Origin: Neobacillus sp. YX16
GTDB lineage: Bacteria > Bacillota > Bacilli > Bacillales > Cytobacillaceae
Direction: 5' to 3'
Length of the DNA: 64,000 nt
Assembly: GCF_030123505.1 (NCBI RefSeq)
Contig: NZ_CP126115.1
Coordinates: forward strand, 1,502,001 to 1,566,000
In this document: positions 7,949-58,701 of the stretch, piece after piece
Numbering within the stretch: position 1 is the stretch's first letter
Layout of the letters: each line of letters begins with the position of its first letter
The notes under the pieces: model-generated
Database searches by the model: none
Seen by the model: the letters and a program-made list of their open reading frames with translations, nothing else
Told to the model about the DNA's origin: nothing
Program-made: the position numbers and the translations under genes

Positions 7949-9010
7949 TTAGTTGTTATGAACAGTAAGCTGCAGGAACAACTGACAGAGATATTCAATT
8001 TTCTTAACTTCTATTTCTTTCTCATCAAAACTCATTGGTTTTGAGTTGACTTCGTAAATATAATAGTGTCCAGTTTCACTAATGCCGACATCTATGGAAA
8101 ACTCCCCAAAAAAGCCAAACTTCTGTGAGAGTGCCATCCCGATTTGTTCAACAACATTTTCAATAAAAAAGTCTTGCTCCTTCGTTTGGAATAGATCATA
8201 GGGTAAAAGCTTTCCACCTGAAGGAATATGAGTGGTTATATCCTGCTTTTGGGATTGTCTTATTCCTACTCCTGTAACAATATAGTTGTCATTTACAGCA
8301 TGAGCGAGAATGCGTAAATCGAACCGTTTACCATCATACGTTTTAGTCTTTATTTCCTCTTGTGCCAAGTAGTTTTTTTCCCTAAGTATGTTTTCCCAAT
8401 CGCTCCAAAAATGATCAAAAGTAATGTATTCATTGCTCTTACTTATTCCATTTAAAATGAGCTTTTTCTCTGTATCTAGTTCTAATCTAAAAATCCCATT
8501 TCCCCTTGCAGATTGTGCAGGTTTTAAATAAATAGATTGAAATTGAGCTAGGAAGGACCTTAGTTTTTGTTTTTCAATGGCCGGGATGGTAGAAGGCAGA
8601 TAAGAATGAAGAATGGGGTGGTCATTAAAGAGCTGATATAGTTCATATTTATCAATAAAGCCTGGATTAAAAAAAGGTATTTTTTTATCCTTTAAGTCAG
8701 AAAAAAACGTACTATTTTTTATTTCTTCTTCTGACTTTCGAAAGGGTATGCGGTTATATACAAGGTCCGGGTAGGGGGAATTAATCTTTTCCCATTCATT
8801 CTTCTCTGGGATAAATGTGAACCCATCTATTGAATCATCATGAACCCCGTCAAGTGTAAAGATAAAGCTTATTCCATTAAGTGAAATAAGCTTCTTTTGC
8901 AGTTCAATAAATAGGGAGCCATTCCCACCAATTGTTCCATCCTTTTTCTTTGCAGTCAAAATTCCAATGACAGGCTTCAGTTTTTTACTCCATGGAATCA
9001 TTGCTACCAT
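7949..9010 (-). CDS. YheC/YheD-family ATP-grasp protein, spore-coat associated (array gene 4)
   Basis: 353-aa member of the YheC/YheD ATP-grasp family. It has a short N-terminal domain (PVIGILTAKK; then VYNRIPFRKSEEE) and an ATP-grasp module. The nucleotide-binding loop is LKPAQSARGNGIF (about residue 155) and the metal-binding end is FSIDVGISETG...YEVNSKP (about residue 300). Such enzymes form amide bonds through acyl phosphates, but no substrate is known for this family; B. subtilis YheC/YheD associate with the forming spore. The start overlaps the previous stop (ATGGTAG), so it is coupled to its neighbour. It is the last of four array genes and appears to be an extra copy relative to B. 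subtilis. Confidence 0.88.
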   Translation of the reverse strand: MVAMIPWSKKLKPVIGILTAKKKDGTIGGNGSLFIELQKKLISLNGISFIFTLDGVHDDSIDGFTFIPEKNEWEKINSPYPDLVYNRIPFRKSEEEIKNSTFFSDLKDKKIPFFNPGFIDKYELYQLFNDHPILHSYLPSTIPAIEKQKLRSFLAQFQSIYLKPAQSARGNGIFRLELDTEKKLILNGISKSNEYITFDHFWSDWENILREKNYLAQEEIKTKTYDGKRFDLRILAHAVNDNYIVTGVGIRQSQKQDITTHIPSGGKLLPYDLFQTKEQDFFIENVVEQIGMALSQKFGFFGEFSIDVGISETGHYYIYEVNSKPMSFDEKEIEVKKIEYLCQLFLQLTVHNN

Positions 9011-10371: not shown

Positions 10372-11455
10372 AGTAGCTCTTCCTTTCTTTATGATCTGAC
10401 TGTGATAGGTGTTTCCCATAAAGAAGAGGGGATAGGAATAAGGTTTCTTTTAAATCTGGCTGTGTTTGTAAGACTACCTTTCTTCCAGGCTTTGAATTTA
10501 CATCGAGAATCCAAAGGGCGCCATCCTTTGCCATTCCAATATCAATACCAATTTCAAATAACGGAAGAATTTCACTTTCGAGTACATGTGGAAGGTTTTG
10601 AGTTATAAAATTTAATTCTGATAAAATATAATCTTTGCTGGCTAAAGGGAGGGTAGAAGACCAGTCACGAAAGTCAACAGCTGAGCCTCCAGCACTTAAA
10701 TTTGAAATAATCCCTCCAGTATTTCCTTGGCGAATAGCCTTTCCGCGTTCAACCCAGAACCCTTGTTCATCTTTTTGAAGTAAAATTCTAATATCAAATG
10801 GCTGTGAAGCAGCATTAGATAATTCAAGATAGGGCTGAAGAAGGTATGGCCGGAAGTTTATTAAGGGTTGGAGCCATTGAAATAACTTTTTCTCATTAGG
10901 AAAAATCCTCGAGATAATTTTCTTGTTTTTTTCGGTTTTGACATGGATGGTTTTATCGTTTTTCTTTAAATAATAGATACCATAACCTTGAGAACCATTT
11001 ATTGGTTTAATAATGATTTTTCTCTGTTTTTGTAAGGCGTTTCCTACTTGCGAGCAATCTTTAATAGGCTGTGAGTGAGGCAAATAAGGAAATAATCGAG
11101 AATTGCGTAAGGTATCATATAATTCTAATTTATTAGGAAGCCCAAATCCTAAAAAAGTAATATCCTCTTTGCTTTTTAACCAGGACACAATAGGGATACA
11201 TTGCTTTGAATGTTCGTCATCACCGTAAAAACAACGGTCATAGATGATAGAAGGGATGGGAAATTCATCTTCTACCCAACATTGTTTTACTGTATCAAAT
11301 CTTCTCCCTAAAACCAGTGTGGTACGAGGATTAATAGCAGAAGGAAGAAAATGGTAACATTCCATGCCGCAGGAATGACCGCGGGCAGCAATTTCGTTTA
11401 TATAGGCTGCTTCACTTTCTAAATTTAAGGTCATAATTCCAAAGGTAGTACTCAT
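10349..11455 (-). CDS. yheC: YheC-type ATP-grasp protein, spore-coat associated (array gene 2)
   Basis: 368 aa, close to B. subtilis YheC (363). Short N-terminal domain (FGIMTLNLESEAAYINE; SIIYDRCFYGDDE), then ATP-grasp with IKPINGSQGYGIYYL (about residue 150) and FEIGIDIGMAKDG...LDVNSKPGRK (about 320). The usual metal-binding Glu before VNSKP is Asp here. The glycine loop is SNLSAGG. The start ATG follows the upstream stop without a gap (TAGATG), with SD GGAGG inside the previous gene. The end overlaps array gene 3. The order short-then-long agrees with yheC-yheD. Confidence 0.88.
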   Translation of the reverse strand: MSTTFGIMTLNLESEAAYINEIAARGHSCGMECYHFLPSAINPRTTLVLGRRFDTVKQCWVEDEFPIPSIIYDRCFYGDDEHSKQCIPIVSWLKSKEDITFLGFGLPNKLELYDTLRNSRLFPYLPHSQPIKDCSQVGNALQKQRKIIIKPINGSQGYGIYYLKKNDKTIHVKTEKNKKIISRIFPNEKKLFQWLQPLINFRPYLLQPYLELSNAASQPFDIRILLQKDEQGFWVERGKAIRQGNTGGIISNLSAGGSAVDFRDWSSTLPLASKDYILSELNFITQNLPHVLESEILPLFEIGIDIGMAKDGALWILDVNSKPGRKVVLQTQPDLKETLFLSPLLYGKHLSQSDHKERKSYYEKTLYH

Positions 11456-12817
11456 CTATAAATCCTCCATTTCTGAGGTTGTATCCAAAGCTAGCATGGT
11501 GCAAAACTGAATAATTGCTTTGGCAGATGGTCTTATTTTCATTTGACCATCTTCAAAGTTTTTCGATGGCTTTGAATTGACTTCAATTAGCCAGGGGTTG
11601 CCTTCTTGGTCAATACCAATATCGATTCCAAGTTCTCCAGTAATTCCAGACGACTTCCTTTCAATAATTATTGCTGTTTCAATGGCTAATTCTTTCATTT
11701 CTGTGATTAACACCTTTGCATCATTTATACTCATGCTATCTTTTAATGCATTTATGGGAGTCAATATTTCTCCGCCTCTGGCAAGATTGGAAACAAACTC
11801 ATCCTCTGCTGATATTCGGGCAACCAGCGAGGTAGCCTTCCAGGTGTTTTGTTGATTCTTATGACACAATACTCTAAAGTCCATCCCTCTATTTTGATAG
11901 GTAAGAAGGGGGATTCCCTGCTGAATAATGTAGATTCTGTTGTTCAATAATGGTTTAATATGCTGATATATCTCTTCAAAGGATAATAGGATTTGCTTAT
12001 TTGCTGGGTGCAATTTAACTGAGGAGTCCAATATCAAATGGGTATTCTCTTTTTTTAGTTTGAATATGTTTCTCCCTTGACTTCCATGTACAGGTTTAAT
12101 AAAAACAGTCTCATACTTATTTGCAAATGCAGCTAAGTGTTCCTTAGTGAACAGATTAGTCTCAGGTATATAGGAATGAAGATGATTTTCATGGATTATG
12201 TGCTCATGAACCTCCCATTTTGAAAGAAAGCGATCATTAAAAATAGGAATGCTTAACTCCGTAAGCCTTTGACGAAATAAATGATATTCCTTTCCAAATT
12301 CAATTTTTCGAGAATGAATACGATTATAAATGACATCAGGAAGAGGGAGTACTGCAGACTTCCATTTCCCATCATCGAAATAATAACCCTGAACCGAAAA
12401 TTCTGGATATGAAAATACATATAAGAAACCGCCATTCTCCGTTAAACCATGATGAAGTTCTTCACAAAAGCTATGGATTGAACGGAAATAGGGTTCTTCA
12501 TTTCCATTATTCTTAAAGTCCGTTACCAGTCCAATGACTGGACCCAAATACAGTGAATGGATTTCTTCTTTATAAATGGATTGAAATTTGTAAAGTTGAA
12601 TCGGTAAACAAAAAAGTTGAAATAGATTTTCAGGGAAATGAATCTCGTTAGGAGACATCTCAACCGTTCTTATTTTTACTTTCACCATTTTCTTTCCTAT
12701 AGAAATCTTGATTTCATTTGTTTCAAGCTGTAACTGTATAAAAAGTTTTGAGGACATCTGAACAAAATGCTCTGTCCTGTTAACTGATTTCATAGGAACA
12801 ATTGTGATTAAGGGCAT
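11456..12817 (-). CDS. YheD-type ATP-grasp protein, spore-coat associated (array gene 1)
   Basis: 453 aa with the YheD architecture: an N-terminal domain of about 95 residues ending LYLGPVIGLVTDF, linker VIYNRIHSRKIE, then ATP-grasp with IKPVHGSQGRNIF (about 240) and GELGIDIGIDQEG...IEVNSKP (about 395). The glycine loop is SNLARGGE. ATG 12817 follows GAGGAG by five bases; GTG 12823 is an alternative. It is the first gene of a four-gene unit, and a sigma-K-like promoter lies about 55-85 bases upstream. This and array gene 4 look like the added copies when compared with the two-gene B. subtilis locus. Confidence 0.88.
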   Translation of the reverse strand: MPLITIVPMKSVNRTEHFVQMSSKLFIQLQLETNEIKISIGKKMVKVKIRTVEMSPNEIHFPENLFQLFCLPIQLYKFQSIYKEEIHSLYLGPVIGLVTDFKNNGNEEPYFRSIHSFCEELHHGLTENGGFLYVFSYPEFSVQGYYFDDGKWKSAVLPLPDVIYNRIHSRKIEFGKEYHLFRQRLTELSIPIFNDRFLSKWEVHEHIIHENHLHSYIPETNLFTKEHLAAFANKYETVFIKPVHGSQGRNIFKLKKENTHLILDSSVKLHPANKQILLSFEEIYQHIKPLLNNRIYIIQQGIPLLTYQNRGMDFRVLCHKNQQNTWKATSLVARISAEDEFVSNLARGGEILTPINALKDSMSINDAKVLITEMKELAIETAIIIERKSSGITGELGIDIGIDQEGNPWLIEVNSKPSKNFEDGQMKIRPSAKAIIQFCTMLALDTTSEMEDL

Positions 12818-12872
12818 AGTCACTCCTCATTTAACGGCGAATATGTTTTTAAATAGGCATTCTTTGATATAG

Positions 12873-46551: not shown

Positions 46552-46578
46552 ACAAAACTCAAATTCCTTCATAATATA
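46552..46578 (+). promoter_or_regulatory. Candidate sigma-K promoter at the head of the accessory cluster
   Basis: AC, 16 bases, CATAATATA: full match to AC-N16/17-CATANNNTA. It ends about 40 bases before the start of the first ATP-grasp gene. The pattern is short and could occur by chance in AT-rich DNA, so the weight comes from its position and recurrence. Confidence 0.5.
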
Positions 46579-46619
46579 TAGGGCGTTCATCTTTGCCATG
46601 GGAAATAGGAGTGAGGATA

Positions 46620-47834
46620 ATGGGGACGATTATATTTATCGGTTTAAATAAATCCGGGTCAAGCAGAGAGGCAGTGAAAGCTGCAAATGAATTAGGTTAT
46701 TATACAGTTGTTTTTACCAATCAGGAAAAGCAAATCCAGCAAAGAAGTGAATATAAAGATGTTCATCAACTGATTTTTGTGGACCTTAGCAATATCGAAG
46801 AGATAAAAAAACAAATTAATATATTGATGGATCGTGGAAATGAAATAATAATTATTACCAGTTTTGTCGCAAAATACGTTCAGACTGCCTCGATGTTGGC
46901 TGACGAATACTGCGAAAACTATTTATCAACGGAAGCTCTTGCTATTATGGAAAATAAAGAAAAAACTAGAACTTTTTTTACTAACCAATCATTCACTCCA
47001 AGATTTAAGTTAATAACAAAAGACATGCCTTTTGTTATAACTAACCAGATATTAATGTTCCCGGTGGTAGTGAAGTGTGCTTCTTCAACTGGCTCAAGGG
47101 ACGTCATCTTTGCAGAAAATATGATGAAACTAGAAAAAAACGTAAATATGCTGCGCTCCAAAGATTCAAGTGAAACCATCATCATTGAAGAATATGTGAA
47201 TGGAGACCAATATTTAGTGGAGGTTCTGGTCAGCAACTGGAGGGTTCTAATTGGTGCCGTAATTAAGCAAGAAATTACAATGGGGAAACGATTTATTGTA
47301 ACGGGATACGGGGTGTTAGCAGAAGTACCGCGACATCTAGAAGAAAGCTTACTTGAATTAATTGGAACAATCGTGACCTCTTTAGAATTTCAAAATGGTG
47401 CCTTTCATTTGGAACTAAGATTGACGGAGGATGGCTGGAGACTAATTGAAATAAATCCTAGAATTTCCGGCGGGGCAATGAACAAGATGATTCAAGCAGC
47501 TTTTGGTTATAGCTTAGTGGAAGAAACACTAAAGTTGTTAATAGGAGAGACTCCTTCATTAGTAAAGTTCACAAATCATTATGTTTTTACACAGTATGTC
47601 ATCCTTGATAATAAAGGCATTTTAGAAAAGGTAACAGGCAAGGGAAGGGCAGCGGCTACACCTGGTGTGGTAGAAGTATACGTCAAGCCGAAGAGTGGAA
47701 CTTATGTAATACCTCCCTTATCAATGGGACACCGCTATGCGTATGTAATTGCCAGAGGAGATACGCTCGAAGAAGCAGAAAATATTGCAAAGCAGGCAGC
47801 GAATGAGATTACCTTTCACCTAAGAAGAGAGTAA
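46620..47834 (+). CDS. ATP-grasp carboxylate-amine ligase-like protein
   Basis: 404-aa ATP-grasp enzyme of the BacD/carbamoyl-phosphate-synthase-like type, distinct from YheC/D. N-terminal Rossmann-like domain (TIIFIGLNKSGSSREAVKAANELGY), nucleotide loop VVVKCASSTGSRDV (about residue 145), adenine strand IIIEEYVNGDQYLVEV (about 195) and metal-binding EINPRISGG (about 277). A C-terminal domain (about 320-404) resembles that of amino-acid ligases. ATG 46620 has SD AGGAG; the open frame upstream to 46593 precedes it. First gene of the cluster; could provide an amino-acid or dipeptide conjugate. Substrate unknown. Confidence 0.82.
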   Translation: MGTIIFIGLNKSGSSREAVKAANELGYYTVVFTNQEKQIQQRSEYKDVHQLIFVDLSNIEEIKKQINILMDRGNEIIIITSFVAKYVQTASMLADEYCENYLSTEALAIMENKEKTRTFFTNQSFTPRFKLITKDMPFVITNQILMFPVVVKCASSTGSRDVIFAENMMKLEKNVNMLRSKDSSETIIIEEYVNGDQYLVEVLVSNWRVLIGAVIKQEITMGKRFIVTGYGVLAEVPRHLEESLLELIGTIVTSLEFQNGAFHLELRLTEDGWRLIEINPRISGGAMNKMIQAAFGYSLVEETLKLLIGETPSLVKFTNHYVFTQYVILDNKGILEKVTGKGRAAATPGVVEVYVKPKSGTYVIPPLSMGHRYAYVIARGDTLEEAENIAKQAANEITFHLRRE

Positions 47835-47867
47835 AGGATCCCCACACTGGTTTATGGGGGTCTTTTT
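47835..47867 (+). terminator. Terminator after the first ATP-grasp gene
   Basis: GATCCCC / GGGGGTC stem with a T-run. The gene upstream is therefore its own unit. Confidence 0.75.
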
Positions 47868-48113
47868 AACGTTATTTTTTTACTGAAACCGTGGTTTACT
47901 TGTATTTTGGTTAATTTATTATTTGTATGCTTGTTGCTTAAAAGTCCAAGCTTTCTCAATTTTTCAGAATAAATTATGAGTGAATAATAAACTGAAAGTG
48001 GAAATGACATATGGGAATTCGTCCGATCCTACAATGTTGTCCAGATTTCCGAAACAACCTTATTGGTTTGTTCCGAGAAATTTGGCTATTTTTAATTAGG
48101 AAGGGGAAATAAA

Positions 48114-48851
48114 ATGCGTGTTTCTGTTGGGAAATGGACAAAACATAAATTGATGCTTGAGGATGAAAGACTTGCTTCCTTTTTGCCTGATACACAATAT
48201 TTGGATAAAACTTCCTTGAATATAATGTTAGACAAATATAATCAAATAATGGTAAAGCCATGCTTTGGTTATCAGGGGAGAGGAATTATCCAAATCTCTT
48301 CATTATTAGATGAAGAATTCGAACTTCATATTGAACGCAGGAAATCATTTGTAAAAGGAAAGGAGAACATCTACGATTACTTAAAAGAGAATCACTTTCC
48401 AAGAAAAAGACAACGGTATATCGTCCAGCAAAGAATTCCACTTGCAACGATAAATAATAATCCATTTGATGTTCGGGTAATGGTACAAAAGAAAAAGGAT
48501 TCTTTGGAATGGGTAGTAACTGGTAAACTTGCAAAAGTGGCAGCAAATAATTTTGTTGTTACTAACGTAGCAAAAGCTGTTTTATCAGTGGAAGATGCTA
48601 TTGAAAAATCACTGATAAACAATGAAAAAAAAATTAAAGATATTGTCGCGGATTTAGAGGAAGTTTCCGTGTTGATTGCGGGGCAATTAGCAAATTCCTA
48701 TCCCAAAAAACGTGTATATGGAATCGATCTTGGTATTGATTTAGAAGGGAAGGTCTGGATTATAGAAGCAAACCTAAGACCTGCTTTATCCATGTTTAAA
48801 TTATTAAATGATGGCTCATATGAAACCATTAAATCTTATAAAAGAGGATGA
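48114..48851 (+). CDS. Short YheC/D-type ATP-grasp protein lacking the N-terminal domain
   Basis: 245 aa. It begins almost at the ATP-grasp module: LPDTQYL (about residue 25), nucleotide loop VKPCFGYQGRGII (about 47) and metal end YGIDLGIDLEG...IEANLRP (about 205). The N-terminal domain of YheC/YheD is absent. The glycine loop of relatives (N-x-x-R/K-GG) reads TNVAKAVLS, so both glycines are lost. SD AGGAAGGGG is strong and the start fits it. It may work with a partner protein or have altered activity. Confidence 0.85.
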   Translation: MRVSVGKWTKHKLMLEDERLASFLPDTQYLDKTSLNIMLDKYNQIMVKPCFGYQGRGIIQISSLLDEEFELHIERRKSFVKGKENIYDYLKENHFPRKRQRYIVQQRIPLATINNNPFDVRVMVQKKKDSLEWVVTGKLAKVAANNFVVTNVAKAVLSVEDAIEKSLINNEKKIKDIVADLEEVSVLIAGQLANSYPKKRVYGIDLGIDLEGKVWIIEANLRPALSMFKLLNDGSYETIKSYKRG

Positions 48852-48957
48852 AAAATGGATAGGCATAACATCTGCCTATACCTTTTAATGTGAATTGAAT
48901 ATAAATTATGGTAAAGGTCCTAATTGCCTATTTATATTAGGAGGCGGAGGAAAGAGG

Positions 48958-51255
48958 ATGAATACGGTTGGTGTACTGCTTTCTAAAAGGGAATGGAGTA
49001 AGTTATTTAGCCAAAAAAACAAAAAGGACGAAATTTGGCATATTTATGCGAAGAAGGGTCGAGAGTTAGACCTTAAAATTCAATTCTTTACACTTACTGA
49101 TATTTCCCTCGAGAGTTTAAAAACGCAAGCAATTGAAATTCAGAATAATTCTATGATAAAAAAGGATACAGTTGACATCCCATCAATTATTTATAACCCA
49201 ACAATATTTTATAAAAAAAAGTATAACAAAAAGTTAAGGGAACTTTCTAACCACCCCAAATTTCAAGTCCTTAATGAACACCATATAATAAAGAAAAAAG
49301 AATTATGTGCATTACTAGATTCATATTCTGATTTAAAAATAGATTTTGAGGAAGAAAACGACGCTAACAATACTTTATTTACTTTATATGTATTAGGTCA
49401 AAAAAAGTTAAATAATAAATGGAAATCCCCGATTATGTACGCAAAAGATTCCAACCAAAAATTATACTATCTCGAAGATGCCTCATTGGATGTATTATGG
49501 GAGTGCAGCCAAAGGGTTTTAGATATCATTCACTTATATTACCCTGGAATTTTCGAGATTGGCATTGTATTTTCATTAAATAAAAATGGTAGCTATTCTT
49601 TAAGTTCAACCTGTTCGATTAATACCATTGTTAAAGATATTTTTGAATATAACATTAAGATGTGTGAAAAAATATGTAAATTCCCATTCAAGGTTGCCAA
49701 GGAACTACTACAACAAAAGAATGCTCACGATGAAATCAGTAATGAATATAGCCTTGCTTATCCATCACAATCAACCGAACTTTTATCAATTCCAGAATCT
49801 GAAGATAATCAGATAATGCTTTCAAATGAGGAAAGTATTAATCTCTGGATCAAATTTAAGGAGTTTCAGGACAAGGAAATGTGCCTGAAATTACCAATGC
49901 CTCAGTCAAAATTAATCACCAGTGGCCAAATCTCCATCCAGTTTGGAATTAATGAACAAACATGTAAAATTGACATCATTGAAAGGGATTTTCCTGTAAA
50001 ACAAAATTCATATACCAATCCTGCAGAAGTAATGATCTCTAGTTCTCTTTTAAGGAAGCTGCATATCCCTATGGACTTGATATATCAGTTAAAGATATCA
50101 AACGATAAAGTAATAATTGGTCCATCCATTGGGCTGTTACTAGGGGAAAACAATCAACTGTACAATCCAACTTATATGGAAAAATACTCTGACCGTCTCA
50201 TGGAATATGAGAAATTTGGCGGCTTAGTTATTGCCTTTTCCACGCGTTCCATCGATTGGGAGGAAAAGATAGCCTATGGGATGATGTATGATCCTACTGA
50301 AAAAAAGTGGAGATATGATTCTGCTCCGATTCCAGCTGCCTTGTACCGTAGAAATTTCCATCAAAATCTTGATAGAATTAATCAGCTAATTGAAATGACA
50401 AATAAGAATTTATTCAATTCCCATTACTTTAAGAAATCTGATCTAATTTTATTAAAAGATGAAAAGGAAATTCGTAACCATGTCCCGGCCACATATCTGT
50501 TGAAAAAAATCGACGATTTAATTGAATTTGTTCAGGATAGGGAAAAGGTTATATTGAAGCCCGTTAGCCTTTCACGAGGGCGAGGCATCTTTATTTTGGA
50601 AAAAAATCAAAAACAAGATGATGGGTATATCCTATACGACCATCAAAATGAGTTTCTACGCCGGTATCTGATTCCTGATACCAAGGGATTAGGGGAAATG
50701 TTAAAGAAGTTGAACATATTTAATAAGCAATATTTGTATCAAACCTACATTCCGCTTCTGAAAATAAACAACCGCCCCTTGGATGTGAGAGTAGTTATGC
50801 AAAAATATGATATAAAAAGCTGGAAGTGCTCTGGTATCGAATGCAGGGTTGCCGGTGAAAATGAGGTGTTAACCAATATTGCAAGAGGCGGAGAAGCAAT
50901 GACCTTGGAGGAAGTAGTAATTGGAACAGGAATTAATCAATCATACGATGAGATTAATGAAAGTATTATAAATCTGTGTCAGAAGTTCTGTAATTTAATA
51001 GATAAAAAAGACGAACATTATGCAGAATTTGGTTTAGATATCGGTCTTGATCAAGAGGGGTTTCCATGGATTATTGAGGCAAATATTTTTCCGAGTTTTA
51101 AAGGCTTTAAAGAAATGGACTATGAAATGTACTTGAAAATACGCTCTCAGCCCATCTTTTATGCTGTTCATTTACAAGGATTTAGCGTAAGTGAAAGTGA
51201 GGTGTGGAGCTCCTGCGAAACATATAATAATAAAAATTCCCACTTCAAATCATAA
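48958..51255 (+). CDS. Two-module YheC/D-type ATP-grasp fusion protein
   Basis: 765 aa. Residues about 1-225 look like a YheC/D unit (NTVGVLLSK; IIYNPTIFYKKKYN; FEIGIVFSLNKNGSYS at about 198) but lack the KPxxGSxG loop and the metal-binding E-x-N, so this module should be inactive. Residues about 300-765 are a full YheD-type enzyme: LITSGQISIQFG, GPSIGLLLGE (about 386), ALYRRNFHQN, LKPVSLSRGRGIF (about 533), TNIARGGEA, and EFGLDIGLDQEG...IEANIFP (about 688). ATG 48958 follows AGGAGGCGGAGGAAAGAGG. Ends in a terminator. The layout suggests a scaffold or binding half fused to an active half. Confidence 0.85.
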   Translation: MNTVGVLLSKREWSKLFSQKNKKDEIWHIYAKKGRELDLKIQFFTLTDISLESLKTQAIEIQNNSMIKKDTVDIPSIIYNPTIFYKKKYNKKLRELSNHPKFQVLNEHHIIKKKELCALLDSYSDLKIDFEEENDANNTLFTLYVLGQKKLNNKWKSPIMYAKDSNQKLYYLEDASLDVLWECSQRVLDIIHLYYPGIFEIGIVFSLNKNGSYSLSSTCSINTIVKDIFEYNIKMCEKICKFPFKVAKELLQQKNAHDEISNEYSLAYPSQSTELLSIPESEDNQIMLSNEESINLWIKFKEFQDKEMCLKLPMPQSKLITSGQISIQFGINEQTCKIDIIERDFPVKQNSYTNPAEVMISSSLLRKLHIPMDLIYQLKISNDKVIIGPSIGLLLGENNQLYNPTYMEKYSDRLMEYEKFGGLVIAFSTRSIDWEEKIAYGMMYDPTEKKWRYDSAPIPAALYRRNFHQNLDRINQLIEMTNKNLFNSHYFKKSDLILLKDEKEIRNHVPATYLLKKIDDLIEFVQDREKVILKPVSLSRGRGIFILEKNQKQDDGYILYDHQNEFLRRYLIPDTKGLGEMLKKLNIFNKQYLYQTYIPLLKINNRPLDVRVVMQKYDIKSWKCSGIECRVAGENEVLTNIARGGEAMTLEEVVIGTGINQSYDEINESIINLCQKFCNLIDKKDEHYAEFGLDIGLDQEGFPWIIEANIFPSFKGFKEMDYEMYLKIRSQPIFYAVHLQGFSVSESEVWSSCETYNNKNSHFKS

Positions 51256-51270
51256 TATATAAATGTGTAA

Positions 51271-51307
51271 AAAACAGGCTATCTGGTATAAGGCCTGTTT
51301 TATTTTT
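51271..51307 (+). terminator. Terminator after the ATP-grasp fusion gene
   Basis: Stem AAAACAGGC / GCCTGTTTT with a 13-base loop and a T-rich tail. Confidence 0.82.
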
Positions 51308-51339
51308 ACTTACCAATTTTTTAATGAAGAGTTGTCCAC

Positions 51340-51367
51340 ACCAATTTAACACTATGTACATAGATTG
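51340..51367 (+). promoter_or_regulatory. Weak candidate sigma-K promoter before the GT4 gene
   Basis: AC, 17 bases, CATAGATTG, which matches AC-N17-CATANNNTA except for the last base. About 90 bases upstream of the GTG start. Listed because the same pattern precedes other cluster genes. Confidence 0.3.
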
Positions 51368-51459
51368 TTGAAGGGGTATAAAATGCTAGAAAGAGCAGTA
51401 TTTTTACCTGTAAGGATGTGTTTTTTAGAGTCTTTTAAAAAGAGTGGTGGGATTATTCT

Positions 51460-52413
51460 GTGAAAATAGTACAAATAGCTAAAAATATTATTCCAGTGCC
51501 GCCAATTGGTTACGGTGGTACGGAGCGTGATATACATTATTTAACGAATTGTTTGATTGATCGTGGTCATGAAGTCATTGTTTTTGCTAAACAGGGATCA
51601 AAATGTAAAGGTAAATTGATTCCTTATCCAAAGAATAGTTCAAAGAATCTATTACCTTTTGTTAAAAAAAATCTTCCTGATGGTGTGGATGTAATTATTG
51701 ACCATGCAGGGTTTGTTGCCACGGCCAAACTCCCAATTCCGACCTTATGTTCAATTCATTCTGCCATTAAGTTTAATGTGCAATTTCCTATATATGTTAG
51801 TAAATATTTATTGGAACATAAGGGAAATGGGAAAGGCTACTTTGTTCATAATGGAATCGGTGTCGATGATTATCCATATCTGGAGCAGAAAGAGAATTTC
51901 TTACTATCACTTGGAAGAATAATTCAATCAAAAGGGACACATTTGGCAATTAAGGCAGCAAAAGCTACAGGGGATTCATTAATTATTGCAGGTAATGTAC
52001 CCAAAAAAGGTATTGCATATTTTAATAAGGAGGTTAAGCCACACATTGATGGAGAGCAAATAAAATATATAGGGGAGGTGGGTGGTGAAGAAAAAATGGA
52101 ACTACTTTCTAAAGCAAAATGTGTCCTTTTTCCAATTACTTGGGGTGAACCATTTGGATTGGTACCAATTGAAGCAATGGCCTGTGGTACCCCTGTTATT
52201 GCTTTTAGAAAAGGGGGAGTACTGGAGACAATGAATGGTTTCCCAGAGCTAACTTGTAATAATTTAAATGAAATGGTTACGATCCTTCAACGTAGTCATT
52301 TTCCGCCTCCCAAAAAATTAAGGGAGTATGTCATTCAATATTTCTCAGCTGAGGTTATGACAGATAATTTTGAGAAGCTTATCCATAAGGCAATTAAGGA
52401 ATATAAAAAATAA
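51460..52413 (+). CDS. GT4-type glycosyltransferase
   Basis: 317-aa retaining GT-B glycosyltransferase. N-terminal acceptor domain (VQIAKNIIPVPPIGYGGTERDIHYL), then donor-nucleotide domain with LSLGRIIQSKGTHLAIKAA (about residue 148) and the E-x7-E motif EPFGLVPIEAMACGTPV (about 228). It is shorter than most GT4 enzymes (about 360-400). Starts at GTG 51460. Sugar and acceptor unknown. First gene of the glycan-assembly half; about 43 bases before the pyruvyl transferase. Confidence 0.88.
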   Translation: MKIVQIAKNIIPVPPIGYGGTERDIHYLTNCLIDRGHEVIVFAKQGSKCKGKLIPYPKNSSKNLLPFVKKNLPDGVDVIIDHAGFVATAKLPIPTLCSIHSAIKFNVQFPIYVSKYLLEHKGNGKGYFVHNGIGVDDYPYLEQKENFLLSLGRIIQSKGTHLAIKAAKATGDSLIIAGNVPKKGIAYFNKEVKPHIDGEQIKYIGEVGGEEKMELLSKAKCVLFPITWGEPFGLVPIEAMACGTPVIAFRKGGVLETMNGFPELTCNNLNEMVTILQRSHFPPPKKLREYVIQYFSAEVMTDNFEKLIHKAIKEYKK

Positions 52414-52456
52414 TTAGGGAATTTGTAGATATCATTGCTTTTGAAGGGGTGGGTAC

Positions 52457-53542
52457 ATGAAAAAAATTTTGTATGTAGGTTTTCTTGGTCATAATAACCT
52501 AGGAGATGAATTATTGTTTGACCTATTCGAAGAAATGAGTGGGAAGTACCTTGATACGAACAAATATCAAATTTCAGCTACTTCTCCATATTCTTTCTCA
52601 GCCTTAAAAAGGTTTGATAACAAGTATGATATATATATACTAGGTGGAGGCTCTCTGTTAACACCGTCCTTCTCCTATATCAATTATATTTATAAAGCCG
52701 TTAAACAAAATAAAAAAGTGATAATATGGGGGAGTGGAATCGATCGGATTCCCAAAAAATATATTGATAACCTTCATATTCAAGAAGATTTTGATGTTCG
52801 TAATATAATTGACAAGAATAATAGAAAAATGTTAATTGAAATTATTGAACATTCAGTTTGGTGTGGGGTTAGAGGTCCACTTACCTACAAGTTTCTAAAG
52901 GCAATTGGAGCAAATATGGACAAAGTAGAAATTAGTGGAGATCCTGGCTTACTTTTAGGTGTAGATAATGGCACATCTAGTTTTTTATGGGGAAATAATG
53001 AAAAAATAATAGGTGTTAATTGGGCCATTCACAAAGATAAGTTAAGAAATATGCATGAAATAGAGGTTGAAAACCAATTAGCAGTCACACTTAAAGATTA
53101 TATTCTGCAGGGCTATAAAATATATATGTATAGTTTATGGAAAAAAGATATTGAAGTAAGCAATCGGCTTTACAGGAAAATAAATGATAATGTAAACGTT
53201 ATTCATGATACCAGGTTGTATAATCAAAATGAGTTAATGGGTTTAATGCAATATTTTCATTTCACTATTAATTACAGATTGCATGCTAGTGTAATATCTT
53301 GTGCTTCTGGTGTTCCTTATATTTCTCTTGGAAATAGGTTTAAAGATTTAGATTTTGCCCATTCTATTGACCTTAAAGAGTTAGTGATTTCCACAGAATC
53401 GCTAAACATTAAACAAAAAATTAATGGAGTAAGTCTGTATATTAATGCCAATCGTGAAGAAATAATAAATAAATTTAATAAACATAAACAAAAATATAGT
53501 CAAAAGTTAATAACTCCATTTAATCAAAATTTATTTTATTAA
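52457..53542 (+). CDS. Polysaccharide pyruvyl transferase (CsaB-like)
   Basis: 361-aa enzyme of the CsaB/WcaK family that adds a pyruvyl ketal from phosphoenolpyruvate to a sugar, giving a negative charge. Visible blocks: N-terminal GFLGHNNLGDELLFDL, GGGSLLTP (about residue 63), the RGPLTYKFLKA...ISGDPGLLLG region (about 140-170), INYRLHASVISCASGVPYISLG (about 273-295). SD GAAGGGGTGGG. Likely co-transcribed with the GT4 gene. In B. anthracis and relatives CsaB modifies cell-wall polysaccharide; here the setting suggests a spore glycan. Confidence 0.88.
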   Translation: MKKILYVGFLGHNNLGDELLFDLFEEMSGKYLDTNKYQISATSPYSFSALKRFDNKYDIYILGGGSLLTPSFSYINYIYKAVKQNKKVIIWGSGIDRIPKKYIDNLHIQEDFDVRNIIDKNNRKMLIEIIEHSVWCGVRGPLTYKFLKAIGANMDKVEISGDPGLLLGVDNGTSSFLWGNNEKIIGVNWAIHKDKLRNMHEIEVENQLAVTLKDYILQGYKIYMYSLWKKDIEVSNRLYRKINDNVNVIHDTRLYNQNELMGLMQYFHFTINYRLHASVISCASGVPYISLGNRFKDLDFAHSIDLKELVISTESLNIKQKINGVSLYINANREEIINKFNKHKQKYSQKLITPFNQNLFY

Positions 53543-53555
53543 AAAATATCAAATA

Positions 53556-53588
53556 AAAAACATGCCCTTAAGTGGGCTTGTTTTTTTA
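53556..53588. terminator. Terminator between the pyruvyl transferase and the convergent GT2 gene
   Basis: Stem around CATGCCC / GGGCTTG (one mismatch) flanked by an A-run and a seven-T run; likely works in both directions. Confidence 0.75.
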
Positions 53589-53615
53589 TTTTCTAAAATT
53601 TGCAGTATCAAGCTC

Positions 53616-54320
53616 CTAGTCATTTCCAAATGCTTTTGTTGTATATTGGACAAAGTTTTCTACTCTTCCGATGATATAACTTCTTCGCCTTAATCGTGCA
53701 TTTGATTGCTTAAAGGTGTGAAAATTCCGATTGCTTCTTCGAATGTAAACATAGTTATACCTGCTTGTTGTATAAATTTTCACATTCCTGCGCTTGCAAA
53801 TACGTACAAACCCACTGTCTTCCCCTGAGCCTTTTATAGAAGGGAACTTAATCCTTGGGTAGATTTCTTTCTTGAAAATTAAAGTCCCGCCTTTCAAAGA
53901 GCTTTTCCCCGCTTTATTCTCAGTACCAAGTTTTCGAATGGTTAATAGTTTTTCTTTTTCAAAATACATAAATGATTTTCCCTTGCCCACCAGCTGTGCA
54001 TTTGTATTATTAAAAACTTCCATAGCCTCTGTTAAATAGTAAGGAGAATAGTAATCATCGTCATCAAACTTGGCTACAATATCAAATTTTGCTTTCTCAA
54101 TACCGAAATTTAAGCAATCTCCTAGTGTTTTCTCTTGCGGAAGTTGATAGATTGTCACATTTGCATAACTTGAAGCTTTTTCCCGCCATTTTGAAATTTT
54201 CATTTTGTCATTATTTAGAATAATAATTAATTCTTTTTCCTTCCACCTTTGTCTAGAAAAGTTTTCAAATATATTATTCATCATGTTATCACGAATTGTA
54301 CATGCGATTAATGTCACCAT
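53616..54320 (-). CDS. GT2-type glycosyltransferase
   Basis: 234-aa inverting GT-A glycosyltransferase, the only minus-strand gene in the cluster. The N-terminal strand MVTLIACTIRDN, a nucleotide-binding region and the acidic metal motif KFDDDDYYSPYYL (about residue 80-92) are clear; GSGEDSGFVRICKRRN (about 180) is the catalytic-base region. The C-terminus is basic. ATG 54320 follows AAGGAGGG by eight bases; the frame extends further but before the SD. A sigma-K-like promoter lies just upstream. Confidence 0.86.
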   Translation of the reverse strand: MVTLIACTIRDNMMNNIFENFSRQRWKEKELIIILNNDKMKISKWREKASSYANVTIYQLPQEKTLGDCLNFGIEKAKFDIVAKFDDDDYYSPYYLTEAMEVFNNTNAQLVGKGKSFMYFEKEKLLTIRKLGTENKAGKSSLKGGTLIFKKEIYPRIKFPSIKGSGEDSGFVRICKRRNVKIYTTSRYNYVYIRRSNRNFHTFKQSNARLRRRSYIIGRVENFVQYTTKAFGND

Positions 54321-54347
54321 AATAAACCCTCCTTCCACATTTCTTTT

Positions 54348-54375
54348 TAGTATATGAGTCAAGCAGTGAAAGTGT
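54348..54375 (-). promoter_or_regulatory. Candidate sigma-K promoter of the GT2 gene
   Basis: On the minus strand: AC, 17 bases, CATATACTA, a complete match to AC-N16/17-CATANNNTA. It ends about 28 bases before the ATG with the SD in between, a plausible promoter position. Confidence 0.5.
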
Positions 54376-54580
54376 TATGCAAAGACCAATAATTCTGAAA
54401 AATGGTTAGAAATCTAGAGGAAATATGAGAATATACCCTGCCAATTCCTTTTCTTATGAATAGTATATAAAGAAATTCCCTGATTTTTGTGCCGCCAAAA
54501 TTTTGTTACCATTCAAATTTGAGGATTTTTTTATTCGAGAAAATAAACGTTCTAAAATGGGATTTAAAGGAGTGAAAAAA

Positions 54581-55309
54581 ATGATTCCCTCTTATGATTT
54601 TTCACTAACACCAAACAGCAATATGGTAATATGCTGTCTGGCTACCGGTAAGAATCATGTGGCTGCATTAGAAATAATGAAACCTACGGTGGAGTATTAC
54701 GGAAGACTCCATGGTATTGATACTTTGTTTTATAATAAAAAACTTCTCCCAAATGAAATGGCTAAAAAGCATAAAGTTTTTTTGCTTTATAACCTATTAA
54801 AATATTACGAAATTGTCATGTGGATGGATTCAGATACCATTATTGTTGATCCACGAGTTGATATCCGAAGTGAATTAACTACTGACCATGTTGTTTATAT
54901 GACAAGTTATTTTAGAAGAAAACCGCTTTTCCCAAATTCAGGGGTAATTGTGGTGAAACGTAATCCAAAAGCGATTGAAATATTAGAGGCTGTTTGGAGA
55001 CACAAAAAGAAGCAAAGTGATGAGTGGTGGGATCAACAAGCCTTCTTAAAGCTTCTTGGTTTTAGGAATAGAAATATTAGAATTTTATCTTATAATGGTC
55101 CAACTAAATATACGCCCCTAATTGGAAGTTTACATGTCAAATGGAACAGTAGACCTAATCGGTTCGATGTCGCTAAAAAACCAATTATTGTACATCACTG
55201 TGGATTAAAGTGGTGGAAACGACTAAAAAGAATGAGGAAAAGCTATAATTTATTTTTGAGAAATATCGAAAAATATAAAACTCTTCCTAGTAAGGCGGAT
55301 AGTCCATAA
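54581..55309 (+). CDS. GT-A glycosyltransferase, GT34/GT8-like
   Basis: 242-aa protein with GT-A features. After a short N-terminus comes VICCLATGKNHVAALEIMKPTVEYY, then the metal motif MWMDSDTIIVD (about residue 83) and FPNSGVIVVKRN (about 125). WWDQQAFLKLL (about 152) and IVHHCGLKWWKR near the end (about 206) follow; this layout is typical of galactosyl/xylosyl transferases of the GT34/GT8 type. ATG 54581 follows AAAGGAG by eight bases, discarding 26 codons of a longer frame. The C-terminus is very basic. Confidence 0.8.
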   Translation: MIPSYDFSLTPNSNMVICCLATGKNHVAALEIMKPTVEYYGRLHGIDTLFYNKKLLPNEMAKKHKVFLLYNLLKYYEIVMWMDSDTIIVDPRVDIRSELTTDHVVYMTSYFRRKPLFPNSGVIVVKRNPKAIEILEAVWRHKKKQSDEWWDQQAFLKLLGFRNRNIRILSYNGPTKYTPLIGSLHVKWNSRPNRFDVAKKPIIVHHCGLKWWKRLKRMRKSYNLFLRNIEKYKTLPSKADSP

Positions 55310-55439
55310 ATCTCTTGATGGGTCGTGGTGAAATAATAAATGAAAAGAGGGACAACGATTAATAAGAAAACTAAGAAAGATGATATGAACCCTCAGCTCG
55401 AAATAACAATGTGAAACAAACCCTTTTGAGAAGATAAAA

Positions 55440-56216
55440 ATGGCTGGATATAACAAATCAAATGAAGTCGAAGTTGCCTTTGCTATTTCGCTAAAAAGTA
55501 AAAGTTCATCCCGAAATTGGACAAGGGTTCAAAACAATTTAGCTAGAACACTAAGGTCAATCATAAACAATACGGACCAAAATTTTAGGATAGTCATCGC
55601 TGGTCATGAAAAACCAACTATTATAGAAATGAACCATGAGCTTGTTACATGGCTGCCTGTTCGTTTCTCTCCCCCAACCTCCATTAGTAAATATAGCAGT
55701 GACAAATTTCGTAAACGTAGAGTGATTGGAGCTTTCTTAAGGAAAAGCGGTTTCTCAGGATACTTTATGCCTCTAGATGCAGATGATTGGGTTCACTATC
55801 GATTTGTAGAATATATTAGGTCCCATTCGATTACAGATGCATTTGTTATGAACTCAGGTTGCATGGCCAATATGAAAAGTAAACAGATATGGGTAAGGGA
55901 ACGTTTTTATAAAGCATGTGGAAGCAGTGCAATATTTTATTTTCGTAATAATGATTTCCCTCGCACCTCTATGAAGAGAGACGTGATGAAGTCTAAATTT
56001 AAATGGGTAATTTTTGCACATGCGAAAGTTACAAATTATCTTAATAATAAAAACTACAAAATGGTGAATTACCCACTTGTTACCTGGGTTGTTGTTCATG
56101 GAGACAACAATACTACTATGAAAAGAAAAATAAGAAGTTCCATTTCTGCAAAAAGGTATCAGGCCATTTCTGAAAATCTCCAGGATTGGTTTTATGAATA
56201 TTATAAAATAAAGTAG
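55440..56216 (+). CDS. Putative GT-A glycosyltransferase
   Basis: 258-aa protein with a GT-A-like acidic motif FMPLDADDWVHYRFVEYI (about residue 103) and an N-terminal FAISLKSKSSSRNWTRVQNNLARTLRSI block seen in GT2-like enzymes. The second half is basic and aromatic. The family is less certain than for its neighbours. Start ATG 55440 has only a weak SD (GAGAAG). About 130 bases after the previous glycosyltransferase and same strand. Confidence 0.68.
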   Translation: MAGYNKSNEVEVAFAISLKSKSSSRNWTRVQNNLARTLRSIINNTDQNFRIVIAGHEKPTIIEMNHELVTWLPVRFSPPTSISKYSSDKFRKRRVIGAFLRKSGFSGYFMPLDADDWVHYRFVEYIRSHSITDAFVMNSGCMANMKSKQIWVRERFYKACGSSAIFYFRNNDFPRTSMKRDVMKSKFKWVIFAHAKVTNYLNNKNYKMVNYPLVTWVVVHGDNNTTMKRKIRSSISAKRYQAISENLQDWFYEYYKIK

Positions 56217-56501
56217 AATGAGTTATTCAATAATAGATTAAGATTAAGTATTCAAGAGGGACTTGCTATTTGTAGGTGCTTCTTTGCTGTTTTTTTTATT
56301 ATAGGGAAACTGCCGTGGCAAAGGATATATATTTGCATGTAATAATAAGTAAACTTTTTATGTTTTATTAGCTGAGGTAAATCCAATGGTTTTTATAAGT
56401 CATTATCAGAATCATGACACATTATTGAGACTGTTATTTGTTACACCTTTTCGTTATTCGAAAGCTGTAGACGGATTATAGAAAAAAAGGAGATTAGGAA
56501 T

Positions 56502-57572
56502 ATGAATACTCCAACAGTTGGAATATTAGTAGGTGGGTTGATATATAGTGGAATTAAGACTAACAGGTCTAATTTAGAGCAAATCAGTTTTTATGAAGAG
56601 GCCTGTATACAATATGGGCTGTGTCCTTGCTTTTTTCGATTAAAAGATATAAAGCTTGAGACAGATCAAATTAATGCGTTAGTAAAAGGTGATAAGGGAA
56701 AATATGAATTGAAAGTTATCACCATACCCAAAATTATTCATAATCGAGGACTTTTTTTTAGGAATGAATCAAAGATAAAGATAAAGAATCTTCAAAAGAC
56801 GGGGGTTATTATTTTTAATGATAGGAATCGTTATGGAAAATGGGGTGTTCATGAGATTTTAATGAAAAATGAAGAATTGCAGCCCCATTTGCCTGAAACG
56901 AAACGTGCAAGTTCGTTGAATTTCATAGAAATGCTGGAGAAGCATAAACAGCTAATCATTAAGCCGAGTGGCGGAAGTCTAGGCGGCGGGGTCGTTATGG
57001 TTGAAAAAAAGGATAGTGAATTTTGGGAAGTTTGTTATAACCAGAAAAGAGAGTCATTTGCTAACGATTGGCCAGACATCATTCGTAAAAAGGTCTTAAA
57101 TAAAAATTACATCATTCAGGAACGAATTCAGCTTGCACAGTATCAAGGAAGCCCTTTTGATTTACGTGTCTCCGTCCAAAAAAATGGATTAGGAGAATGG
57201 CAGGTAACAGGTGTGGTTGGTAAGGTTGCTAAAATAGGAAATTATGTAACCAATGTTGCAAAAGGTGGTACCTGTAAAACGCTTACTGAACTATTATCCG
57301 ATTATTCTGACCTGGATTTCAACGAAGTCTATCAATCTATTGAAGACTTTTCAATTAAAGCAGTAACTGAATTAAATAAGTATTTCCCTAACCTAGCAGA
57401 TGTAGGGCTGGATATTGGTTTAACTACTGAAGGTTTTCCCATGTTTATTGAATGTAATTGCCGCGATCTTAGAATAACATTTAAAAAAGCTCAAATGCAT
57501 GAAGTATGGAAAGCAACATATACAACACCAATCAGTTATGCGAGGTATCTTTTTGATTCCAAGATAATTTAG
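56502..57572 (+). CDS. YheC/D-type ATP-grasp protein (cluster)
   Basis: 356 aa, YheC size class. N-terminal domain starts TVGILVGGLIYSG; linker IIHNRGLFFRNESK; nucleotide loop IKPSGGSLGGGVVMVE (about residue 150); glycine loop TNVAKGGT; metal end DVGLDIGLTTEGFPMFIECNCRD (about 305). The usual E-x-N-S-K-P has become ECNCRD, so one of the conserved basic/Pro positions is changed. SD AAAAAAGGAGA. About 285 bases after the glycosyltransferase and 25 bases before the next ATP-grasp gene. Confidence 0.86.
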   Translation: MNTPTVGILVGGLIYSGIKTNRSNLEQISFYEEACIQYGLCPCFFRLKDIKLETDQINALVKGDKGKYELKVITIPKIIHNRGLFFRNESKIKIKNLQKTGVIIFNDRNRYGKWGVHEILMKNEELQPHLPETKRASSLNFIEMLEKHKQLIIKPSGGSLGGGVVMVEKKDSEFWEVCYNQKRESFANDWPDIIRKKVLNKNYIIQERIQLAQYQGSPFDLRVSVQKNGLGEWQVTGVVGKVAKIGNYVTNVAKGGTCKTLTELLSDYSDLDFNEVYQSIEDFSIKAVTELNKYFPNLADVGLDIGLTTEGFPMFIECNCRDLRITFKKAQMHEVWKATYTTPISYARYLFDSKII

Positions 57573-57597
57573 ACACTTGTCAAGGGATGTGATTTAT

Positions 57598-58617
57598 TTG
57601 CAAGGTATCGGTATGCTCCACTTCCGGAAAAATCCTGTGGATGTAAAAAAGGCGTATCCCTTTGCAGCCGTTGCGAAAATGGAAGGGGTTCACTTTTTTT
57701 ACTTTTCATTTAATAATGTGGACTTTGACAACATGAAGATTAAGGGTTGGATGTATGAGGAAGGGAAGTGGATTCAAAAACAAGTAGATTTTCCTTCTGT
57801 TGTGATAAACAGCTGCAACCCAAAAACGGAGAACCAGAAAATCATACTAAAGAAGATAAAAAAATATGCGATTTTAACAAGCTTTCCAGTAGGGAACAAA
57901 ATGAAAGTATATAAAAAAGTGAAAAAAGCAAAAGTGTTCGCCTCCTATCTAATCCCTTCCACTACGCTACTCCAGGCAGAAGAACTTATTTCATTTTTAA
58001 AAGATCAACCGAGAGCCGTAATAAAACCTTTATCTGGAAATCATGGGAAAAAGGTGTTTTTTATCGAAAAAACGGAGGAACAGTTTAGAGTAACAGAAGG
58101 ATTCAACATCATGTATATGAATGAAAAGGAACTTAACAGTTACTTTTGTCCAATTATTGCAGCACAAAAGTTTCTGATGCAACCTTTCATTGAATGTAAA
58201 ACAAAAAGTGGTCTTACTTATGATTTTAGATTACATGTTCAAAAAAATGGTGAAGGGAAATGGGAAATCACCTTAATTTATCCTCGTATAAGTGGAAATG
58301 CAAAAATGATTAGTAATATAAGCAGTGGTGGCTACCGGGGAGAATTAGCCTCCTTTTTAGAAGATGAATTTGATGAAGATTCGAAAAAAGTTAAGGAAAA
58401 CCTTGAGGTCTTTGCTTTAACCTTTTCTACTCATTTAGATACTTTATATGAACATTCGTTTGATGAGCTTGGTATAGATGTTGGTATTGATACAAACCAA
58501 AGACTATGGTTATTTGAAGTGAATTGGAGACCAGGTTCAAAAAACAGGGAATTTGACGTTGCCAAACGCCTTATTCCTTATTGTAAATATCTTTTAAATA
58601 AAAATAGTATCCCGTAA
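57598..58617 (+). CDS. YheC/D-type ATP-grasp protein, last cluster gene
   Basis: About 339 aa. N-terminal GIGMLHFRKNPVDV, nucleotide loop IKPLSGNHGKKVFFIE (about residue 142; the glycine pattern is reduced compared with GSxGxG), SNISSGGYRGE, and metal end DELGIDVGIDTNQRLWLFEVNWRPG (about 295). The start is uncertain: TTG 57598 lies ten bases after AAGGGA and gives a family-like N-terminus; the frame is open to TTG 57577, and ATG 57613 is a further choice. It is coupled to the previous gene by closeness. A likely terminator follows. Confidence 0.83.
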   Translation: MQGIGMLHFRKNPVDVKKAYPFAAVAKMEGVHFFYFSFNNVDFDNMKIKGWMYEEGKWIQKQVDFPSVVINSCNPKTENQKIILKKIKKYAILTSFPVGNKMKVYKKVKKAKVFASYLIPSTTLLQAEELISFLKDQPRAVIKPLSGNHGKKVFFIEKTEEQFRVTEGFNIMYMNEKELNSYFCPIIAAQKFLMQPFIECKTKSGLTYDFRLHVQKNGEGKWEITLIYPRISGNAKMISNISSGGYRGELASFLEDEFDEDSKKVKENLEVFALTFSTHLDTLYEHSFDELGIDVGIDTNQRLWLFEVNWRPGSKNREFDVAKRLIPYCKYLLNKNSIP

Positions 58618-58654
58618 AAAGAAGCGCAAGAACTTAAATGCGGATATTTTCGAA

Positions 58655-58701
58655 TGCCCTCACCGTTACAATTTCGTTATTATCGGTATTAGGGCTCTTT
58701 T
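58655..58701 (+). terminator. Likely terminator at the end of the accessory cluster
   Basis: GCCCT-CACCG facing CGGT-ATTAGGGC around a long loop, ending in CTCTTTT. It is imperfect but in the expected position, about 40 bases after the last ATP-grasp stop. Confidence 0.5.

Follow-up and report, generated by a model that had tools for sequence, protein, structure and literature searches.

Cyanophycin synthetase carries an ATP-grasp domain followed by a Mur ligase domain in one chain, and the glutamate ligases RimK, LysX-ArgX and TTLL add amino acids to protein carboxylates. It is an established view that linked ATP-grasp ligases carry out consecutive ligations in making peptide metabolites, teichuronopeptides and polymers like them (PMC4431377, in its passages on such ligases). 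In a Bacillus, the polyglutamate/polyglucuronate polymer teichuronopeptide has been tied to the ATP-grasp ligase TupA (PMC8153356, in the part on TupA), and this known case of an acidic glycan-peptide polymer belongs to the vegetative wall. For YheD, which with YheC represents the ATP-grasp family PF14398, the relevant passages of PMC7911427 describe SpoIVA-dependent deposition as a shell round the spore and a function undetermined as of 2021. Here we analyze a cluster of ten genes (P1 to P10) between lplJ and lcfB in Neobacillus sp. YX16, in which four YheC/D genes stand together with a dipeptide-ligase-like gene (P1), four glycosyltransferase (GT) genes and a gene of the pyruvyltransferase superfamily. 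The window, by which we mean the whole stretch of DNA analyzed, comprises 64,000 nucleotides of the forward strand (NZ_CP126115.1, positions 1,502,001 to 1,566,000); the stretches compared with it carry L numbers.

The joining of YheC/D genes to a dipeptide-ligase-like gene and to GTs sets this locus apart from known YheC/YheD, and in relatives one YheC/D protein is fused to a MurF-like ligase. The fusion holds the same two enzyme classes as cyanophycin synthetase in the same order, but its Mur half is MurF-like, two fusions score only 64.0 and 63.6 bits with the cyanophycin synthetase model TIGR02068 (cut-off, 850 bits), and the window has no fusion; no protein of the cluster comes close to this cut-off (P1 scores 21.4 bits). 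In its enzyme classes, the set resembles both cyanophycin synthetase and the synthesis of peptidoglycan stem peptides, although its scores place it in neither family. The TupA model PF14305 was not among the matches of P1 to P10; it reaches 205 bits in the relative L050. As for spore-coat polysaccharide, the passages of PMC517825 on the Bacillus subtilis sps operon (SpsA) do not mention peptide ligases alongside sps. The literature that we searched, which did not extend to the 2009 survey of ATP-grasp amidoligases by Iyer et al., held no account of YheC/D genes occurring with GT, P1-type, Mur or MurF-like, or CotZ genes.

What is conserved looks like a system of peptide ligases, to which the GTs and the pyruvyltransferase are an optional addition, because ligase loci free of GTs occur at the same chromosomal site and seven loci with the ligase set in other families show no GT of our reference set. 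Its steady partners, namely P1-type, YheC/D and MurF-like ligases and in many loci also CotZ, are a toolkit for non-ribosomal peptide-bond formation. The cluster may thus derive from a peptide-ligase system of the spore envelope, expressed in the mother cell and here decorated with GTs, a reading that we consider about equally likely to be right or wrong.

Ligases and transferases of the cluster

All ten genes listed for this interval in an initial annotation proved to be open frames where it had placed them, and nine of them have Pfam matches. The gene identities given there mostly held, except that P6 lies on the minus strand and that P5, which had been called CsaB-like, falls below the CsaB cut-off. 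The separately assembled relative Bacillus sp. 7884-1 (L030) shares this arrangement, so an assembly error is unlikely. Alignment with relatives places the start codons of P1 (∼46620), P6 (∼54320) and P7 (∼54581) probably downstream of the longest-frame starts.

P1 (46593 to 47834, plus strand) has the domains of an L-amino-acid ligase (PF18603 LAL_C2, 78.2 bits against a cut-off of 29.4; PF13535, 64.2 bits) and matches the solved L-amino acid ligase BL00235 (3vot) with an E value of 5e-9; it looks like a dipeptide ligase of the BacD/LAL type. P2, P3, P9 and P10, all on the plus strand, exceed the PF14398 cut-off of 26.8 bits and are YheC/D members by score. P2 (48114 to 48851; 165.7 bits) is a short form without the N-terminal domain, its catalytic residues are intact, and its relatives in L037, L039 and L051 measure 244 to 249 amino acids (aa). 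P3 (48895 to 51255; 197.3 bits) is long and holds two PF14398 copies: the first is degenerate (50.7 bits) and lacks the ATP lysine as well as further catalytic residues, and the second (residues 505 to 760) is complete with its catalytic residues intact. P9 lies at 56502 to 57572 (218.8 bits) and P10 at 57577 to 58617 (195.3 bits); P10 is the best match in the window for the fusion proteins of relatives (40 to 43% identity), being nearest to their YheC/D half.

The structure model of P9 lies nearest to the solved folds of RimK, ArgX, GshB and TTLL6, matching over the whole chain and keeping the Mg and ATP residues, as expected of a RimK/LysX-type enzyme, but identity to the RimK, LysX-ArgX and TTLL enzymes is 15 to 20% over the aligned part in the best matches. 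This predicted amino-acid-ligase-like fold supports the suggestion, made in the initial annotation, that the ATP-grasp enzymes form amide or peptide bonds.

The remaining genes encode transferases. P4 (51460 to 52413, plus strand) is a GT4 enzyme (PF00534, 79.9 bits). P5 (52457 to 53542, plus strand) belongs to the polysaccharide pyruvyltransferase superfamily (PF04230 PS_pyruv_trans, 93.8 bits; cut-off, 25.3), which it shares with CsaB, the enzyme of secondary cell wall polymer pyruvylation, but with 68.1 bits against the TIGR03609 cut-off of 213.1 its identity as CsaB was rejected. P6 (53616 to 54362, minus strand) is a GT2 enzyme (PF00535, 41.6 bits), and P7 (54503 to 55309, plus strand) resembles nucleotide-sugar transferases (PF03407 Nucleotid_trans, 27.2 bits; cut-off, 22). 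P8 (55440 to 56216, plus strand) has no Pfam match; its structure model predicts a GT-A fold with a DXD-like acidic motif, and its N terminus is shorter than in many relatives. An alignment search across the class, scoring few candidates per genome, recovered P8 from its own genome alone among 398, and a protein database contains 81 relatives spread over several genera; the gene is thus uncommon and patchily distributed. In L067 it is split into two frames.

YheC/D loci in other genomes

YheC/D genes occur in 147 of 151 genomes of the family, most often in four copies (81 genomes). The genome of the window has nine, four of which form the usual four-gene cluster of the family (7949 to 12823, minus strand; sigma-K-like site at 12900) and four the cluster described here. 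The ninth lies apart from the others at 2.7 Mb (L098, 7230 to 8564), and a sigma-K-like site of its own starts 46 bases upstream of its longest-frame start.

The interval between lplJ and lcfB is a hotspot. In two related species it holds P2, P3, P9 and P10 (L114) or P1, P2, P3, P9 and P10 (L115), in each case without GTs and with genes 84 to 89% identical to those of the window. In three further species (L117, L134 and L135), the same site holds P1 (76 to 81% identity), a separate MurF-like ligase and a YheC/D-Mur protein of 724 to 735 aa; Pfam scans of L117 and L134 agree. Thus even a single site may have the GT block in one lineage and lack it in another. The clusters most closely related to that of the window and bearing GTs are L039, L050, L051, L055 and L067, with partial forms in L052, L053, L066, L069 and L074/L075; for L054, the YheC/D genes start in the adjoining stretch L111.

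For a sample picked by position, we took 28 loci (L114 to L141) with noncanonical YheC/D copies from 17 of the 26 genomes that have at least eight copies; other extra copies of the 17 genomes lie outside the sample, some of its loci are mutually orthologous, and three (L128, L133 and L140) are short contigs. GTs were recognized with our own reference set (BLAST E value of 1e-8, or 1e-6 for loci of other families), which misses other GT families. The sample held P1-type genes in 13 loci, MurF-like genes in 8 (7 with the fusion), CotZ-type genes in 7 and recognized GTs in 4, the last being an underestimate because the nine other genomes with at least eight copies (the window and those of L039, L050, L051, L053, L055, L066, L067 and L074/L075) had been set aside, their GT clusters having already been fetched. 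Over all 48 YheC/D-bearing loci, 18 of which had been fetched via P5, P6 or P7 homology, the counts were 23 with a GT, 24 with a P1-type gene, 14 with a MurF-like gene and 10 with a CotZ-type gene. All 10 CotZ-type loci fall among the 24 P1-type loci (P = 0.0006, from 48 loci that are not all independent), and of nine CotZ calls checked with Pfam, one (L128, 21.6 bits) lies just below the cut-off of 24.

MurF-like ligases recur in the same company. Full-length relatives of the fusion were found in at least 9 of the 151 family genomes and, across the class, in at least 8 of 299 genomes (60 to 76% identity over ∼720 residues), with the halves as neighbors in one more; both searches scored few candidates per genome and give lower bounds. 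Examples of ∼720 aa lie at 4063 to 6228 of L118 and at 9305 to 11512 of L134. The MurF model TIGR01143 (cut-off, 288.6 bits) gives 244 to 262 bits for four separate ligases and 247 and 243 bits for two fusions, and no NCBIfam model listed for these two fusions reaches its cut-off. From other families, we fetched six of the eight class loci with the fusion (L142, L143, L144, L145, L147 and L148) and the locus of the split pair (L146). Within the fetched stretch, each of the seven holds a P1-type gene and one or more separate MurF-like ligases, five hold a CotZ-type match and four an NlpC/P60-type gene, and none holds a GT of the reference set. Among seven stretches with weaker half-matches (L149 to L155), no such ligase set was seen, except that in L153 a P10-type gene lies beside a P1-type gene. 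Pfam found no Mur match among P1 to P10, and a MurF-like partner elsewhere in the genome was rejected, with weaker Mur matches alone (the best, at 231473, has 32% identity); the best match to the MurF-like ligase of L055 scores 153 bits and lies outside the cluster.

These loci bear on the reading of the unit as a glycan pathway, in which P4, P6, P7 and P8 would build the backbone of a spore-surface glycan and the YheC/D enzymes and P5 would decorate it. All 10 family genomes with a P7 homologue exceed four YheC/D copies, compared with 43 of the 141 without one, so the cluster arrangement is more than chance. GTs are interleaved with YheC/D genes in L039, L050, L051, L055 and L067, and TupA-like genes, of the kind tied to teichuronopeptide (PMC8153356), are found there in L050 (by Pfam) and L055 (by membership in the same sequence cluster). 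However, four YheC/D genes stand at the same site without a GT in L114 and L115, no GT is recognized in 25 of the 48 YheC/D loci or in any of the seven ligase-set loci of other families, and in L110 (genome G006) a P7 homologue of 48% identity has no YheC/D gene within 20 kb. Co-occurrence of YheC/D genes with GTs, which the initial annotation had named as a test of its proposal, is mixed, and a glycan pathway as the nature of the unit is not supported in the form proposed. We regard the glycan model as unlikely, though a serious contender. The pyruvyltransferase is not a steady partner either: relatives of P5, the weakest of which match at E values of ∼1e-4 to 1e-3, share a stretch with YheC/D genes in 3 of 18 cases (L035, L037 and L039).

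It is also conceivable, but to our minds improbable, that two unrelated spore islands, a ligase set and a GT set with different targets, came to lie in one hotspot. The GT block is present or absent independently, and genes of the P6 family lie mostly away from YheC/D genes, which are present at 14 of 40 loci, nearly all fetched by P6 homology. On the other hand, interleaving of the two sets is seen in several genomes belonging to different genera, and all eight genomes with a close P6 homologue (at least 58% identity) have more than four YheC/D copies, compared with 45 of the 143 without one; with any P6 relative above 130 bits, the counts are 30 of 49 versus 23 of 102.

Sporulation link and promoter-like sites

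We searched for sigma-K-like sites with the pattern AC-N15-17-CATANNNTA; this pattern and that for sigma-E follow the consensus sequences. A two-block motif with ∼15-bp spacing is shown in the Figure 4 legend of PMC517825. Matches lie upstream of P1 (46552 to 46578, plus strand, AC-N16-CATAATATA), of P6 (54348 to 54375, minus strand, with the -10 element CATATACTA) and of the usual YheC/D cluster; 46552 is also the first base of the cluster as delimited in the initial annotation. The sigma-E scan gave no site upstream of P1 to P10. The P1 site is kept in all five aligned species (the window, L115, L117, L134 and L135), and the DNA further upstream diverges. The P6 site is a full match in four of seven aligned relatives (L039, L051, L052 and L053), L050 keeps the -10 element alone, and L054 and L055 have none.

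Site rates were calculated over L032 to L141 minus L090 to L109, with L030 and L031 left out. Sites preceded 7/32 P1-type genes, 5/25 Mur-type genes (including two fusions also counted as YheC/D), 3/11 CotZ-type genes, 14/183 GT genes and 6/133 YheC/D genes, compared with 27/678 other genes in L032 to L089, 4/320 other genes in L110 to L141 and 6/281 genes in 400 kb (20 stretches) of the window's own genome, where one of the six is the ninth YheC/D gene. Against the least favorable control, P was 0.0004 for P1-type, 0.004 for Mur-type, 0.01 for CotZ-type, 0.05 for GT and 0.81 for YheC/D genes; the cluster itself, with 2 sites for 10 genes, differs from the own-genome control with a P value of 0.03. 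At the loci selected through P5 or P6, other genes were themselves rich in sites (22/524, and 5/154 beside YheC/D genes, versus 5.5 and 1.35 expected from shuffles), and none of 55 YheC/D genes had one.

The CotZ-family neighbors in relatives, the P1 site kept in five of five species and the published work on YheC/YheD together point to sporulation, which agrees with the spore-surface link proposed in the initial annotation. That the product is instead a teichuronopeptide-like polymer of the vegetative wall is accordingly very improbable. TupA-like genes do occur in two relatives and pyruvyltransferases do work in wall polymers, but the CotZ neighbors, the sigma-K-like sites and the published mother-cell control of yheC/yheD speak against it, as does the lack of a TupA match among P1 to P10. 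The idea that P1 makes a small bacilysin-type peptide antibiotic, with the other enzymes tailoring it, has P1's place in the ligase family of BacD-type dipeptide makers in its favor and can nearly be dismissed, as the nine Pfam-matched cluster genes include no transporter or resistance gene, CotZ is linked to these ligases in relatives, and there are many paralogous ligases rather than one.

Several observations weigh against a mother-cell-expressed peptide-ligase system. Two further sigma-K-like matches fall inside P4 (51999) and P5 (53157), so single matches mean little. The YheC/D genes show no clear excess of sites (6/133; P = 0.07 to 0.81, depending on the control), and four of the seven P1-type sites belong to orthologues at one locus; counted once, they give a P value of 0.002 against the most favorable control. 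SpoIVA is present in all four family genomes that lack YheC/D genes, and the CotZ linkage could reflect a shared spore island only. In the eight set-aside genomes other than that of the window, GTs occur in 9/9 ligase loci, 7 of which have P1-type genes and 6 MurF-like genes. Lastly, the window contains neither a MurF-like gene nor a CotZ neighbor, and its parallel to the wider set rests on P1 and P10.

A possible product and the history of the cluster

From the peptide-ligase reading, we would infer substrates, an order of steps, an acceptor, a location and a product as follows. P1 would join two amino acids, and P2, P3, P9 and P10, with ATP, would then link amino acids or the P1 dipeptide to an acceptor carboxylate, each forming one type of bond; in relatives, one of these steps would fall to the MurF-like ligase, either as a protein of its own or as part of a fusion with a P10-type enzyme. 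The acceptor might be a CotZ-type protein or a glycan, or the peptide might be a free polymer, and the product would come to lie in the outermost layer of the spore, for which CotZ-type proteins form the base. In the lineage of the window, P4 to P8 would attach sugars and, provided that P5 is active, a pyruvyl group, and the final product here would be a peptide-bearing glycan or a glycopeptide.

More broadly, and more tentatively, a spore-envelope pathway new to the literature searched may be widespread in Bacilli. In this pathway, YheC/D and MurF-like ligases (often as one YheCD-MurF fusion) would work with a dipeptide ligase to build a non-ribosomal peptide onto a CotZ-type scaffold, in parallel to the making of cyanophycin or of the peptidoglycan stem peptide, and the lineage of the window would have turned it into a glycopeptide pathway by means of the GT block. 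If this is true, YheC/YheD, a coat family without a defined substrate, would gain a biochemical role, and spore coats would hold a non-ribosomal peptide or glycopeptide new to that literature, which would probably affect how spores adhere, what charge they carry and how resistant they are. The recurring neighbors make the claim testable: YheC/D proteins would ligate amino acids and in this way make part of the spore surface.

The cluster in the window seems to have been larger once and to have since been reduced. A 31-codon frame (56386 to 56481, plus strand) combines the first 13 residues (54% identity; E value of 4, not significant alone) and the last 19 (79%; E value of 1e-4) of a 436-aa YheC/D protein (tblastn, L039 query), whose gene sits before P9 in L039 and L050. 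On the simplest reading of these remnants, the lineage of the window lost the middle of that gene. L039 and L050 also have a MurF-like gene between P9 and P10, which the window lacks, its gap there being 4 bp. A ribosomal precursor peptide, as in graspetides, was considered and rejected: among the small frames examined, which were not all of those present, the one with a traceable origin was this YheC/D relic.

The surroundings of these and other P6 loci also include a MurF-like ligase, a TupA-like ATP-grasp protein, a GT8 enzyme, a PIG-L deacetylase, a hexapeptide acyltransferase and an alginate-lyase-domain protein, as well as epimerase, nucleotidyltransferase, GT-D-like, GT61 and ATP-sulfurylase proteins. 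TupA-like genes lie between GTs and YheC/D genes once in L050 (8203 to 9060) and as three clustered copies in L055 (6692 to 9317). In L067 (2559 to 8866), the GT and YheC/D cluster adjoins an ATP-sulfurylase gene and, by eye, sulfotransferase-looking genes, which hints that the surface polymer of that species is sulfated. Next to MurF-like genes, L117 (14486 to 15898) and L119 (12887 to 14242) each encode a protein that contains three NlpC/P60 stretches and, by eye, a signal-peptide-like start. NlpC/P60 enzymes typically cleave gamma-glutamyl-diamino-acid bonds, and NlpC/P60-type neighbors, as in four of the seven loci of other families, give a hint of the kind of bond made. A protein with the BclA C-terminal domain, of the exosporium type, is encoded within a cluster of YheC/D, P1-type and Mur genes in L128 (8512 to 8964). 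In the window itself, positions 55340 to 55378 weakly match the N terminus of the 388-aa gene that precedes P8 in L050 (77% over 13 aa; E value of 0.12) and are perhaps a second relic.

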